A stretch of 64,000 bases of DNA from Methylopila capsulata (lineage in GTDB: Bacteria; Pseudomonadota; Alphaproteobacteria; Rhizobiales; Methylopilaceae). The position numbers and the translations under genes were made by a program. Of the stretch, positions 721 through 5,219 are shown one piece after another (within the stretch, counting starts at the first letter, position 1; each line of letters begins with the position of its first letter). Location: the NCBI RefSeq assembly GCF_016907975.1, contig NZ_JAFBCY010000003.1, positions 806,001 to 870,000 of the forward strand, in the 5' to 3' direction. A model generated the notes under the pieces. It was not told the DNA's origin, did no database searches, and was given only the letters and a program-made list of their open reading frames with translations.

Positions 721-1200
721 TCAGACGTTCCAGCGGCGGGCGATCAACCGGTCGAGCGACAGCGCGCCGGGGCCCCGCGCGACGATCAGCAGAAAGCACG
801 CCGCCCAGACGCCGTGGGTCGGCCAGGCGTCGGGATAGACGAAGATCTCGATCACCAGCGTCATGCCGAGCAGCGCCAGCGCGGCGAAGCGGCTTGCGAG
901 GCCCAGCACGAGGAGGATCGGAAACACGTGCTCGGCGAACGCCGCGCCGTAGGCGGCGACCGTCGGGTCAACCAGCGGCAGCCGGTACTCCTCCTGGAAC
1001 AGGTAGACCGCGCTGTCGGACAGGCCGAAGCCGTCCACCTTGGTCTGGCCGGACTGCCAGAACACCGCCGCGGGGAACACGCGCGCGGCGAGCGCCAGCG
1101 CCGAATAGGGGATCGCTTCGAACAGGCCGACGATCCGCCGAACGCCGGCGGCGAGAGGCCCGCGGGGCGGGACGCGGGCGGCGAGAGGGACGGCGGTCAT
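721..1200 (-). CDS. DoxX-family membrane protein of the bufferin operon
   Basis: A 159-residue inner-membrane protein with about four hydrophobic segments and the DoxX-type pattern ([20 protein letters not shown] early, then two close helices in the second half). It is the last gene of the bufA-bufB-bufC-doxX unit; its ATG overlaps the bufC stop (ATGA), so translation is probably coupled. DoxX proteins often accompany DUF692/DUF2063 genes; a role in redox or membrane steps of bufferin production or export is inferred, not proven. No Cys residues are present, so it is not itself a thiol redox enzyme. Confidence 0.85.
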
Positions 1201-1979
1201 GGCTGGAGCTCCGGGTTCGGGGGCGGGTCGATCGTCGCGACGAGACCGGCCGCGATCAGGCCGGACAGATTGAGGGTCAGGTCGAAGTCGGGCGCGACGC
1301 GGCGAGCAATCGCGCAGGCGCGCCCCAGCGCGCGTCCGCTTCCAAGCGCCGCGAGAAAGGCCGCGCCGCCTCGGGGCAGCCGCCGCACATGGACCTCGAG
1401 CTCCGGCCGCGTCACGAGCCCGTCTTCGGCGAGAAGCCCGGCGATCGGGCCGAGCTCCGCCTCGTCGGCGTTCATCGCCCAGATCGATACGACCGGATGC
1501 GGCGACCGTACGACGCCGACCGATGGATGGAGCCGAAGCCCCAGCTCCGGCAGCGTCTCGGGCGGAACCGCGGCGAAGGCGTCCGCTACGAGCGGCACGG
1601 CGTCGGCCGCGTGGTAGGCGCGGGTGCGGGCGGCCTCGAGCCGGGCGACGTCGCCGAGGTAGGGAAGCTCCGCGAGATCAGGCGCCGCTGCGATGAATTC
1701 GGGAAAGGCCTCGCCATAGACCATCATCAGGGTGGAACGCGGAGGGTGCGCGTGGATGAACCCGCGCGCGAGCTCCGCGAAGAAGGCGTCGCCGACGATC
1801 CGCCGCACGGCGGGGAAGCGCGCGGCGAGCGCGCCTCCGAGACCGACCGCGACGTTGTTGCGGTAGACCGCGAAGCGTCGCTCCGGCCGGAGGCCGCCCG
1901 CCGCGGCGAGATCGGGGGGCGGGGCCGCGTGCGGATCCAGCGCCGCCGCGGCGAAGCGCGCCTGGGCGGCCGCGCTCAC
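1197..1979 (-). CDS. bufC: BufC-like partner protein (DUF2063, N-terminal putative DNA-binding domain)
   Basis: A 260-residue cytosolic protein starting at GTG (1977-1979) overlapping the bufB stop (GTGA). The N-terminal half carries the DUF2063 signature ([12 protein letters not shown], then [13 protein letters not shown]), historically labelled a DNA-binding domain. In RiPP clusters such proteins act as partners of MNIO enzymes that bind and present the precursor peptide (MbnC and BufC are the named examples). The C-terminal half is alpha/beta and family-variable. Between bufB and the DoxX gene with overlaps on both sides, it is very likely co-translated with them. Function as precursor-recognition partner is inferred from family and gene order. 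Confidence 0.87.
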
Positions 1980-2866
1980 GCCGCGATCTCACTGCGCTTG
2001 GCGTCAGCGCCGCCACGCGGCGCGCTTCGGGCGGCGCGGTCGAGCCACGCCTGCGCGACCATCGCCTCCGCGCGCAGCTCGGACCAGGCCGGCACGTCGT
2101 TGTCGCGCTCGATCAGCGTCGGCAGCGGGCCGGTCCGTTCGAGCGTCCGCGCGTAAAGCGCCCAGACCGGATCGGCCACCGGCGCGCCGTGGGCGTCGAT
2201 CAGCAGCGGCGCGCCGCCGTCGTCCTCGGCCAGATCATGACCAGCGAGATGGATCTCGCCCACCGCTCCTAAGGGGAAGGCGTCGAGATAGGCCTCCGGC
2301 GACGTCCCGTGATTGGTGGCGGAGACCAGCACGTTGTTGATGTCCAGCAGCAGCCCGCAGCCGGTGCGGCGGGCGACTTCAGCGAGAAACGCGGCTTCGG
2401 GAATCTCGCTTTTCACGAACAGCACGTAAGTCGCGGGGTTCTCGAGCAGCAGGCGCCGGCCGAGCGCGCTCTGCGTCTCGTCGACGTGGGCCACCACCCG
2501 GGCGAGCGTCGCGGCGGTGTAGGGCAGCGGCAGCAGGTCGTTCAGAAACACGCCGTCGTGCGTCGACCAGGCGAGATGCTCGGAAAAGCTCTCGGGCCGG
2601 TAGCGGTCGCACACCAGCTTCAGCCGCGAGAGATGCTCGCGATCGAGCGGCCCGGCGCCGCCGATCGACAGGCCCACGCCGTGGATCGAAAGGGCGTGGT
2701 CCAATCTCAGCCGGCCCAGTTGCGCGTGCGGCGGCCCGCCGGCGCCCATGTAGTTTTCGGCGTGGACCTCGAAGAAGCCGGCGAAGTCGGCGTCGGCGAG
2801 CGCATCGGTGAAGTGTTCGGGCTTGAAGCCCACGCCCGCGGTCGCGGGCAAGGTGGTCGGGATCAT
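1976..2866 (-). CDS. bufB: MNIO-family enzyme BufB (DUF692), multinuclear iron peptide-modifying oxidase
   Basis: A 296-residue TIM-barrel enzyme of the DUF692/MNIO family. These use two or three iron ions and O2 to modify cysteines of precursor peptides (oxazolone/thioamide in methanobactin, thiooxazole-type groups in bufferins). Metal-ligand segments expected for the family are visible: [39 protein letters not shown] and ERDND. Start ATG at 2864-2866 has GGAG eight bases upstream. It follows the precursor gene bufA after a 76-base gap holding a hairpin. Substrate assignment to the adjacent four-Cys precursor is inference from context; family membership is strong. Confidence 0.93.
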
Positions 2867-2894
2867 GGCGTGCGCTCCGGGAGTTGGAGACGCG

Positions 2895-2935
2895 CGCCGG
2901 ACGCCGCGGCGGCCGAGCCGGCGCCGCGTCCGGCG
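2895..2935 (-). promoter_or_regulatory. Stem-loop between bufA and bufB
   Basis: Ten-base perfect arms CGCCGGACGC (2895-2904) and GCGTCCGGCG (2926-2935) flank a GC-rich loop in the 76-base gap between the precursor gene and its modifying enzyme. It has no downstream U-tract. A hairpin here could protect the bufA message 3' end or dampen read-through so that precursor is made in excess over enzyme. Position and pairing are seen; the function is inferred. Confidence 0.45.
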
Positions 2936-2942
2936 GCGATCG

Positions 2943-3227
2943 TCACATCTTGATCGGGGTGAGCGATCCCATGCCCTTCGGCGTCTTCATCGTCACGCAG
3001 GAGCCCGCCGGGACCGCTTTCCAGGCGTTGCCCTGGTAATCGACCTTGGCGGTGCCGGCGCAGGTGGTTCCCGCGCCCGCGGCGCAGTCGTTCTGGCCCT
3101 TCATGGCGACGCCGTAGCACTTCTCCTTGCCGGCCATTTTGTCCTCGGCGGACGCGGGCGCGGCGACGGAGGCCAGCGCGGCGGCGAACGAACCCGCGAG
3201 GGCGACGGCGGCGATTCGACGATTCAT
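2943..3227 (-). CDS. bufA: Bufferin precursor BufA (DUF2282), exported four-cysteine peptide
   Basis: A 94-residue small protein. Start ATG at 3225-3227 is preceded by AGGAGAA at proper spacing; a longer upstream reading (to 3260) lacks this site. Residues 1-26 form a signal peptide ending APASA, and the mature part holds exactly four cysteines (Cys37, Cys48, Cys56, Cys77) in the DUF2282 pattern [19 protein letters not shown] and [11 protein letters not shown]2282 proteins are bufferin precursors: Cys residues are post-translationally modified by the MNIO enzyme encoded next door, and the product sequesters copper in the periplasm. First gene of the operon, directly behind an ECF-type promoter. 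Modification chemistry in this organism is inferred. Confidence 0.92.
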
Positions 3228-3277
3228 GACTGTTCTCCTGAAGTAGATCCGGGCTCTCATCGGCCCGTGCCATGGTC

Positions 3278-3304
3278 TTCGTCAGGAGACGGACGTTCGT
3301 TACA
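3278..3304 (-). promoter_or_regulatory. ECF sigma-factor promoter for the buf operon
   Basis: Read on the minus strand the sequence is TGTAACG (3304-3298), a 16-base spacer, then CGAA (3281-3278), about 50 bases upstream of the bufA start. The same -35 heptamer, the same 16-base spacing and a near-identical -10 occur in the divergent promoter before the sigma gene, which strongly suggests recognition by that sigma factor. It resembles the promoters described for Caulobacter SigF (from memory). Confidence 0.75.
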
Positions 3305-3355
3305 GCGACCCGCTTGAATTTTGAAAGGCGGCGTCCGGCTTGACCGGGGAGCGCC

Positions 3356-3382
3356 TGTAACGCTTCCTGCGTCTCGCGCGTA
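3356..3382 (+). promoter_or_regulatory. ECF sigma-factor autoregulatory promoter
   Basis: TGTAACG at 3356-3362, a 16-base spacer, and CGTA at 3379-3382, ending 20 bases before the GTG start of the sigma gene; a GAGG ribosome-binding site follows at 3392-3395, so the leader would be very short. Paired with the divergent copy over bufA it implies positive autoregulation of the sigma/anti-sigma pair. Confidence 0.7.
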
Positions 3383-3402
3383 AGTCGGATCGAGGATGCT
3401 TC

Positions 3403-3954
3403 GTGAACGAGCGTGAACGGGACTGGGCGGCCTGGATGGCGGAGGCGGAAGCGGGCGACACGTCCGTCTATCGTCGCCTGCTCGCCGAGCTCGCCGTGTT
3501 CCTCCGAAAGGTGGTCCGGCGCCGCGCCGGGAGCTTCGGCGTGGACGACGCGGAGCTGGAGGACGTGGTCCAGGAGGCGCTGCTCGCGATCCATCTGAAG
3601 CGCGGCACCTGGGATCCGGCGCAACCCGTTGGTCCGTGGGTGGCGACGATCGCGCGCAACAAGCTGACCGACGCGCTGCGGCGCCGCGGCCGGCGGATCG
3701 TCGTGCCGATCGAGGACGTCGAGGAGGTCCTCGCCGCGCCGCAGGAGGACGAGGGCCTGTCGGCTCGCGAGACCGACCGGCTGCTCTCCGTGCTCAAGGG
3801 ACGGCAGCACGACGTCGTGCGGTCGATCTCGCTGGAGGGCGCGGACATCCGCGCGACGGCGGAGAAGTTCGGCATGAGCGAGGGCGCCGTGAGGGTCGCG
3901 CTGCACAGAGGGTTGAGCGCGTTGTCCGCCGCCTACAGGAGCTTCCGGGAATGA
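3403..3954 (+). CDS. ECF RNA polymerase sigma factor (SigF-like), controls the buf operon
   Basis: A 183-residue group 4 sigma factor starting at GTG (3403) with GAGG seven bases upstream. Region 2 shows DAELEDVVQEALLAIHLKRG followed by PWVATIARNKLTDALRRRGRR; region 4 is RETDRLLSVLKGRQHDVVRSISLEG then the helix-turn-helix IRATAEKFGMSEGAVRVALHRG. The gene overlaps the anti-sigma gene (ATGA) and is divergent from bufABC-doxX. In Caulobacter the SigF/NrsF pair responds to metals and oxidants and drives a DUF2282/DUF692 operon; the arrangement here is equivalent. The inducing signal (copper or other thiophilic metal) is inference. Confidence 0.9.
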   Translation: MNERERDWAAWMAEAEAGDTSVYRRLLAELAVFLRKVVRRRAGSFGVDDAELEDVVQEALLAIHLKRGTWDPAQPVGPWVATIARNKLTDALRRRGRRIVVPIEDVEEVLAAPQEDEGLSARETDRLLSVLKGRQHDVVRSISLEGADIRATAEKFGMSEGAVRVALHRGLSALSAAYRSFRE

Positions 3955-4589
3955 GGACGAGCGATCTGATCGAGGCCCTGGCCGCCGACGCCGCCACGCC
4001 GCCCGCGCGGCTCGGCCGTACGTTCGCCTTCGCTTTCGCGCTCGCGGTCGCCGGCGCCGCGCTCGTCTTTGCCGTGAAGCTCGGACCGCGGCCCGACTTC
4101 GTCGACGCGCTCGGGACCGTGCGGTTCCCGTTCAAGTTCGTGGTGACCGGCGCGTTTGGAGCCGCCGCCGCGCTGCTCGCGCTGCGGCTCGCGCGGCCGG
4201 GCGCCTCGGTGCGCAGCGGCGTTCTCGCGCTCGGCCTAGCCGTCGCGGTGCTCGGGGCAGGCGTGCTGGCCGAGCTGGCGGTGACGCCCGAGGCGACTTG
4301 GGCGGCCCGGCTCGTGGGCCACAACTGGCTGGTCTGCCTGATCAACGTGCCCGTGCTGTCGGCCATCCCGCTGTCCGCGCTGCTGATCGCGCTCCGTCGG
4401 GGCGCGCCGGCGTCGCCGTCGCTCGCCGGCGCTGTCGCGGGCGTGGTCGCCGGCGCGATCGGCGCGACGTTCTACGCCGCTCAGTGCCCGGACGACTCGC
4501 CGCTGTTCGTGGCCGTTTGGTACACGTTGGCGATCGCCATCGTGGCGACGGTCGGGGCCGTCGTCGGGTCGCGTCTGCTGCGGTGGTGA
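3951..4589 (+). CDS. nrsF: NrsF-type membrane anti-sigma factor (DUF1109)
   Basis: A 212-residue protein with a short cytosolic N-terminal segment (the DLIEALAADA region typical of DUF1109) followed by six predicted membrane helices. Start ATG 3951 overlaps the sigma-factor stop. Two isolated cysteines, Cys129 (NWLVCLIN) and Cys179 (YAAQCPDD), match the spacing of the two sensor cysteines known in Caulobacter NrsF, so metal or redox sensing through them is plausible. It should hold the sigma factor at the membrane until the signal arrives. The 135 bases after it hold no recognised feature. Confidence 0.88.
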   Translation: MRTSDLIEALAADAATPPARLGRTFAFAFALAVAGAALVFAVKLGPRPDFVDALGTVRFPFKFVVTGAFGAAAALLALRLARPGASVRSGVLALGLAVAVLGAGVLAELAVTPEATWAARLVGHNWLVCLINVPVLSAIPLSALLIALRRGAPASPSLAGAVAGVVAGAIGATFYAAQCPDDSPLFVAVWYTLAIAIVATVGAVVGSRLLRW

Positions 4590-4724: not shown

Positions 4725-5219
4725 ATGAAATTTCGCACCTTGGCGACTGCGGTCGTCGTGGCGAGCCTCGCCGCGCCAACGGCGCAGGCGGGCTTCCTGG
4801 ACTTCCTGTTCGGACGCCGGGCGCCAGCTCCCGTCGAGGAGTACCGCGATCCGCCCATGGCGCCGGCCCCGCCGAGGGTCGATCGCGCGCCTGTCCGGGC
4901 GCCGCAGCTCTCGCCGAGGGAGCAGCTCGCGCGCACGATTGATCCGGTCGTGAATCCCGACTGGCATCTGGTGGATCCCACCCTGCGGCGGGGCGACGTG
5001 CTGTTCCTGGCGGACCGCGTGGTCGTCTTCACCGGCGGGCGGATCGGCGACGCCAGCAGCTACGCGCCGCTCGAGAGCAGCCGCACCGTCAGCCCGACCG
5101 AACGCCGCGCGCTGCGCAAGATGGCGGGCCGGGCGGCGCAGGACGAGCCCACCGAGCCGAAGGAGCGGCGCCGCCGGACCGTGAAGCCCGCCGGCGCCCG
5201 TCTCGCGACCTCGTTCTGA
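4725..5219 (+). CDS. Hypothetical exported protein
   Basis: 164 residues. Residues 1-22 form a Sec signal peptide (ends PTAQAG with cleavage after AQA). The mature protein begins GFLDFLFGRR, followed by a Pro/Ala-rich stretch, a compact central domain (residues ~68-110, NPDWHLVDPTLRRGDVLFL and VVVFTGG) and a basic C-terminus. I do not recognise an enzymatic family; similar short periplasmic proteins with an N-terminal FLDxLFG segment occur in Hyphomicrobiales. It converges on the Kbp-like gene with a 13-base gap. No promoter stands out. Confidence 0.7.
   Translation: MKFRTLATAVVVASLAAPTAQAGFLDFLFGRRAPAPVEEYRDPPMAPAPPRVDRAPVRAPQLSPREQLARTIDPVVNPDWHLVDPTLRRGDVLFLADRVVVFTGGRIGDASSYAPLESSRTVSPTERRALRKMAGRAAQDEPTEPKERRRRTVKPAGARLATSF

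Follow-up and report, generated by a model that had tools for sequence, protein, structure and literature searches.

Does the bufferin-type gene cluster near the start of the 64,000-nucleotide stretch of Methylopila capsulata DNA analysed here (the window; contig NZ_JAFBCY010000003.1, positions 806,001 to 870,000) encode a new kind of peptide governed by a sigma factor of its own, or a known kind whose regulator also serves other genes? We consider it very likely that the cluster is a bufferin operon of the canonical Buf1 (DUF2282) kind, controlled by a switch of the extracytoplasmic function (ECF) type ECF16, formed by the sigma factor SigF and the membrane anti-sigma factor NrsF. The locus is a well-preserved case of a system that, like its regulator and layout, is already known. 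The new piece of the analysis is a joint regulon, predicted from promoter-like sites, in which the bufferin operon shares one regulator with the methionine sulfoxide reductase (Msr) genes msrP and msrB and an msrQ-like gene; also new is the persistence of sigF and nrsF in genomes without a DUF2282 match.

Gene families and organization of the locus

The genes, their families, the conserved residues and the promoter sites, together with the conservation of each, are read directly from the DNA (Table 1). All six locus proteins (6/6) score above curated Pfam cut-offs (DUF2282, MbnB_TglH_ChrH, DUF2063, DoxX, sigma-70 regions 2 and 4, and NrsF), and BufB also passes the cut-off of the NCBIfam model labelled 'MNIO family bufferin maturase'. 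The order of transcription on the minus strand is bufA, bufB, bufC, doxX, and sigF-nrsF lies divergently on the plus strand. The gene order, strands, coordinates and families proposed in an initial annotation of this DNA agree with the sequence, as do the GTGA and ATGA gene overlaps it described (bufB/bufC and bufC/doxX, respectively), to which a further ATGA at sigF/nrsF can be added; family models, promoters and the order of the genes all support its reading of the cluster as a bufferin-type operon with SigF/NrsF. DUF692, DUF2282, DUF2063 and NrsF each have one match in the whole genome, and no second match to any of them was found elsewhere in its 4.1 Mb at an E-value of 0.001.

The comparison set comprised 91 loci, namely 79 named loci (the best 79 of at least 529 confirmed), which were partly found with search peptides bearing cysteine (Cys), and 12 family loci from a profile search; L002 is the window's own locus, which is counted twice, as the window and as L002. 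When the six window proteins were searched against these loci by TBLASTN, the 79 named loci, several of which are cut by contig ends, yielded bufB in 77, doxX in 74, bufC in 70, sigF in 58 and nrsF in 57. A divergent sigF within 450 bases of a bufA was present in 55/79 named loci, and 45/79 had a divergent sigF plus every other gene somewhere in the locus. The family loci, at about 3 kb too short to reach doxX, contained a divergent sigF, nrsF, bufB and bufC in all 12 cases (own locus included).

Table 1. Genes and SigF-type promoter sites of the bufferin locus, and msr genes elsewhere in the genome that are preceded by an exact core site.
Feature	Position	Strand	Site	Model scores and remarks
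doxX, DoxX-family membrane protein, 159 aa	721-1200	-		Pfam PF07681 66.7 bits, cut-off 23.6
bufC, DUF2063 partner protein (PME-type 1), 260 aa	1197-1979	-		Pfam PF09836 89.8 bits, cut-off 27.2
bufB, MNIO (DUF692) maturase, 296 aa	1976-2866	-		NCBIfam MNIO_BufB 369.4 bits, cut-off 310; Pfam PF05114 339.7 bits
bufA, DUF2282 (Buf1) precursor, 94 aa	2943-3227	-		Pfam PF10048 86 bits, cut-off 22.4; Cys 37, 48, 56, 77
SigF-type promoter of bufABC-doxX	3278-3303	-	GTAACG-N16-CGAA	ends 50 bp before bufA start
SigF-type promoter of sigF-nrsF	3357-3382	+	GTAACG-N16-CGTA	ends 20 bp before sigF start
sigF, ECF sigma factor, 183 aa	3403-3954	+		Pfam sigma-70 regions 2 and 4; NCBIfam PRK12512 238.1 bits, cut-off 198
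nrsF, membrane anti-sigma factor, 212 aa	3951-4589	+		Pfam NrsF 201.7 bits, cut-off 26.8; Cys 129 and 179
msrP	L132:472-1464, G000:C1		exact GTAACG-N16-CGTA, 36 bp before ATG	402.6 bits, cut-off 207
msrB	L133:1056-1472, G000:C1		exact GTAACG-N16-CGTA, 28 bp before ATG	168.1 bits, cut-off 113.05
msrQ-like gene	L140:455-1468, G000:C4		exact GTAACG-N16-CGTA, 32 bp before ATG	113.1 bits, below cut-off 130; Pfam Ferric_reduct 45, cut-off 28

The precursor and its maturation enzymes

The four Cys of BufA are spaced 11-8-21 and follow an N-terminus that, on inspection by eye, resembles a Sec signal peptide. The initial annotation gave the Cys positions correctly, called their spacing distinctive and suggested that the mature product could be a new variant; the spacing proved to be the norm of the DUF2282 family, and the suggested variant is therefore unsupported. 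With a spacing-tolerant pattern, 11-8-21 was found in 94/96 four-Cys matches from the window and the 91 loci (four matches with five or six Cys, in L028, L066, L075 and L084, were left out of the count), and each of the 91 loci contained at least one precursor spaced in this way. The Cys-bearing peptides among the queries bias the 79 named loci towards the same spacing; the 12 profile-found family loci agree with it. Both exceptions, spaced 11-7-21, are second copies adjoining a normal copy. The alternative, that this is a new variant whose Cys are unusually spaced and perhaps modified in a new pattern, could draw on the fact that no solved structure matched BufA, but given the uniformity of the spacing across the family we regard it as highly improbable. 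Tandem bufA copies occur in L020, L039 and L081, and the extra 11-7-21 copy in L039 and L081 is a natural precursor variant.

Buf1 precursors are reported to carry four conserved Cys, of which the central ones are modified and the first and last form a disulphide (PMC12452194), and MNIO-DUF2063 systems are reported to yield thiooxazoles, with a loss of 8 Da from a substrate with two sites (PMC13097082). Because the central two Cys of Buf1 are modified and the outer two are in a disulphide, a mass shift of about -8 Da plus -2 Da would be expected (PMC12452194), instead of the roughly -4 Da for every one of the four Cys that was initially anticipated. The BufB alignment (76 rows retained from 90 with a match, that is, 89 loci plus the window, after partial or broken sequences were dropped) contains many invariant His/Asp/Glu/Asn columns, kept in 76/76 rows, and BufB aligns with PDB chains that include 3BWW, 8HCI, TglH and MbnB. 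Searches of PDB sequences returned no match for BufC or BufA, and only five chance-level matches (E 0.63-0.72) for NrsF.

SigF-type promoters between bufA and sigF

Both sites in the interval between bufA and sigF match the SigF motif reported for Caulobacter crescentus, GTAACC-N16-CGAA (full form tGTAACc-N16-CGAA; PMC3511200). Relatives were scored with a relaxed rule (GTAAC, 16 to 19 bases, then CGA or CGT) against 200 rounds of dinucleotide shuffles. A site towards sigF was present in 67/67 divergent loci (shuffle mean 1.1, maximum 4), a site towards bufA in 62/67 (mean 1.2, maximum 7), and sites on both sides in 62/67 (mean 0.02, maximum 2); these 67 loci are partly redundant, with identical site pairs in L010/L015, L005/L050, L051/L058 and L070/L074. 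The L015 locus belongs to Chenggangzhangella methanolivorans, a member of the Methylopilaceae and, among the matches listed, the nearest named BufA relative (best segment 91%); its bufA-sigF interval has the same two sites as L010, from the same-genus genome G008.

The two sides differ in their endings. On the sigF side, CGT is the ending in 11/12 family loci and in 6/55 named loci, while the bufA-side site has CGA in 12/12 family loci and in 48 of the 50 named loci having a site. The CGT/CGA difference at the sigF-side site may reflect tuning of autoregulation.

Methionine sulfoxide reductase genes in the predicted regulon

The extended pattern TGTAACG-N16-CGWA has two exact matches genome-wide, both between bufA and sigF, and the core GTAACG-N16-CGWA is exact at five places in the genome: before bufA, sigF, msrP, msrB and the msrQ-like gene. 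The three msr genes lie at separate places, and the contig that carries msrP is not the one that carries the msrQ-like gene. When up to one mismatch was allowed, 16 promoter-like sites were found, compared to 18 for a reversed-pattern control, so the number of sites is not above chance and the weight of the argument rests on where they lie. This genome-wide search covered GTAACG with up to one mismatch, which places GTAACC- and GTAACA-type sites outside its reach. The 11 places with a mismatch in the core were inspected for nearby open frames, and a 153-aa frame follows 33 bp after one of them (L127).

The msrP site was scored in 16/18 genomes, two (G003 and G005) being left out as having weak distant matches only. 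It was present in 12/13 same-genus genomes, the exception being G007, and in G002, while no exact site was found before msrP in G001 (which has no NrsF), G004 or G007 (which both have NrsF). Msr genes are reported as common to several ECF16 regulons (PMC8315932; PMC3420878), and the msrPQ part of the joint regulon has already been shown in C. crescentus. Our literature search found no paper joining bufferin, methionine sulfoxide reductase and MNIO; the link is already in print under other names.

Is the sigma factor pair dedicated to bufferin?

The initial annotation described the sigma/anti-sigma pair as dedicated to the bufferin operon, a claim weakened both by the exact core sites before the three msr genes and by the genomes that keep the pair in the absence of a DUF2282 match. 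Four of the 13 same-genus genomes (G006, G009, G010 and G012) have no such match, and all four contain NrsF, a SigF-type site before sigF (three found by script, that of G010 by eye) and the msrP site. Because DUF2282-negative genomes retain nrsF, the self-directed site of sigF and the msrP site, the SigF/NrsF pair probably serves more than bufferin alone.

The contrary explanation, that SigF/NrsF serves the bufferin operon alone and that the msrP, msrB and msrQ sites arose by chance or belong to another sigma factor, would fit a site count no higher than that of the control, as well as G004 and G007, where NrsF occurs without an exact msrP site. It accords poorly with the msrP site in nearly all same-genus genomes, including the four that are DUF2282-negative, with the single NrsF match in the genome, and with the reported membership of msrPQ in the C. 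crescentus SigF regulon (PMC3511200; PMC8224329) and of Msr genes in the EcfF regulon of Bradyrhizobium japonicum (PMC3420878). We judge it quite improbable. More tentatively, and at somewhat less than even chances, it is possible that the core role of SigF/NrsF in this genus is periplasmic methionine sulfoxide repair through msrP, and probably msrB and msrQ, with the bufferin operon as an exchangeable add-on. If this were true, bufferin would be the preventive arm of one regulon, holding copper before sulfur is oxidised, and Msr would be its repair arm. Close relatives that have the regulator and no DUF2282 precursor offer a natural comparison for what bufferin adds.

One such relative, G012, was aligned with the window by BLASTN up to position 701 and again from position 3375 (L183 808-837). 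TBLASTN found sigF (84%) and nrsF (63%) in that stretch and left bufA, bufB, bufC and doxX all unmatched there. The protein adjoining the locus in G012 (Pfam Sacchrp_dh_NADP), which we take to be a homospermidine-synthase-like protein, is 99% identical. As nrsF is only 63% identical beside this neighbour, the G012 arrangement need not be a simple deletion, and the sigF-nrsF locus may instead have been replaced.

Proposed mechanism and stress signal

From characterised relatives we infer the modification of BufA, its copper binding, the signal and the regulation of the operon. In the proposed mechanism, copper, or some other stress of a thiol-reactive or oxidative kind, would act on NrsF through its two conserved Cys, leading to the release of SigF, which would then transcribe sigF-nrsF, the divergent bufABC-doxX and the three msr genes that lie away from this locus (msrP, msrB and the msrQ-like gene). 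BufB, as an iron-dependent MNIO, would act with its partner BufC to convert the central Cys of BufA (C48 and C56) into thiooxazoles, and a C37-C77 disulphide would form after Sec export. The mature peptide would hold excess periplasmic copper, and Msr enzymes would repair oxidised methionine.

The sensor step is consistent with the conservation of NrsF Cys 129 and 179 in 66/66 aligned rows (retained from 70 with a match, that is, 69 loci plus the window, after partial or broken sequences were dropped). Their 50-residue separation equals that of C131/C181 in C. crescentus NrsF (compared by spacing), and their numbers are the same as those of C129/C179 in B. japonicum OsrA (compared by number). 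In C. crescentus, NrsF is reported to hold the sigma factor until stress releases it, and changing C131/C181 to Ser led to higher expression of SigF genes (PMC3511200).

Copper as the signal is suggested by reports that in C. crescentus, under the conditions tested, msrPQ is induced by copper together with the SigF cluster and another DUF692 cluster, that sigF::Tn5 cells are copper-sensitive (PMC8224329), and that bufferins are copper chelators (PMC12452194). Several points weigh against the overall interpretation. BufA, BufC, DoxX and NrsF matched narrower NCBIfam models with scores under their cut-offs (HvfC for BufC, HvfX for DoxX, and AntiSigF_NrsF for NrsF, at 119.9 bits for a cut-off of 300), and the genome-wide site count does not exceed its control. 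In addition, C. crescentus reportedly stayed as viable under dichromate or cadmium when sigF, CC2906 or CC3255 was deleted (PMC3511200), a related cluster of Cupriavidus metallidurans had no effect on copper resistance (reported in PMC8224329), and reporter fusions for RpoE7 of Sinorhizobium meliloti were unresponsive to H2O2, cadmium and chromate (PMC6180224).

The main trigger of the operon might be a metal or oxidant other than copper (gold, silver, chromate, cadmium or hypochlorite), with copper not being its natural signal. SigF relatives are reported to respond to chromate and cadmium (PMC3511200), to H2O2 and singlet oxygen (PMC3420878) and to HOCl (PMC8315932), and the C. metallidurans cluster to gold, silver and copper (PMC8224329). 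We nevertheless find this unlikely, since the C. crescentus sigF mutant is described as sensitive to copper but not to chromate or cadmium, and bufferins as chelating copper.

Comparison with known systems

Among the closest described counterparts is the C. crescentus cluster CC3252-CC3257 (nrsF, sigF, DUF2282, DUF692, DUF2063, DoxX; bufferin 1), whose layout has been in print since 2012 and whose genes, all six of them, match those of the present locus in family and order (PMC3511200). It also shares divergent SigF-type promoters and the two conserved NrsF Cys, and its regulon likewise includes an msrP homologue, CC2748 (PMC3511200; PMC8224329). In contrast to the single bufferin operon of the M. 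capsulata genome, C. crescentus is reported to have a second DUF2282-DUF692-DUF2063 operon (CC2907-CC2905), and its msrPQ genes lie side by side, whereas those of M. capsulata do not. The msrB gene is not named among the SigF targets in the available part of the C. crescentus report (PMC3511200), while that of M. capsulata carries a SigF-type site.

Two other ECF16 systems each share part of this arrangement. S. meliloti RpoE7/EcfR7 drives the divergent operon SMb20527-SMb20530, whose four genes include DUF692 and DUF2063 members and which is described as orthologous to CC3254-CC3257, and promoter motifs have been predicted before both operons (PMC6180224); unlike in M. capsulata, no msr target is noted in the available part of that source. 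B. japonicum EcfF/OsrA resembles the M. capsulata pair in its anti-sigma Cys 129/179, its motif GTAAC(g,a)...CG(t,a) and its methionine sulfoxide reductase targets, but the available part of its description, unlike the present locus, includes no bufferin operon among them (PMC3420878). The fontiphorin, oxazolin and gonophorin clusters (captophorins) likewise combine an MNIO with a DUF2063 partner, Cys thiooxazoles and a link to copper; their precursors carry EGKCG-type repeats, whereas that of M. capsulata belongs to DUF2282 (PMC13097082). The locus adds one species to a known copper-buffering system, and its use may lie in the prediction that bufferin and three methionine sulfoxide reductase genes share one regulator.

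Beyond nrsF, positions 4725-5219 of the window hold an open frame of 164 aa whose start is signal-like; it had no Pfam or NCBIfam match at an E-value of 0.001 and is conserved in G012 (L183:2240-2734).

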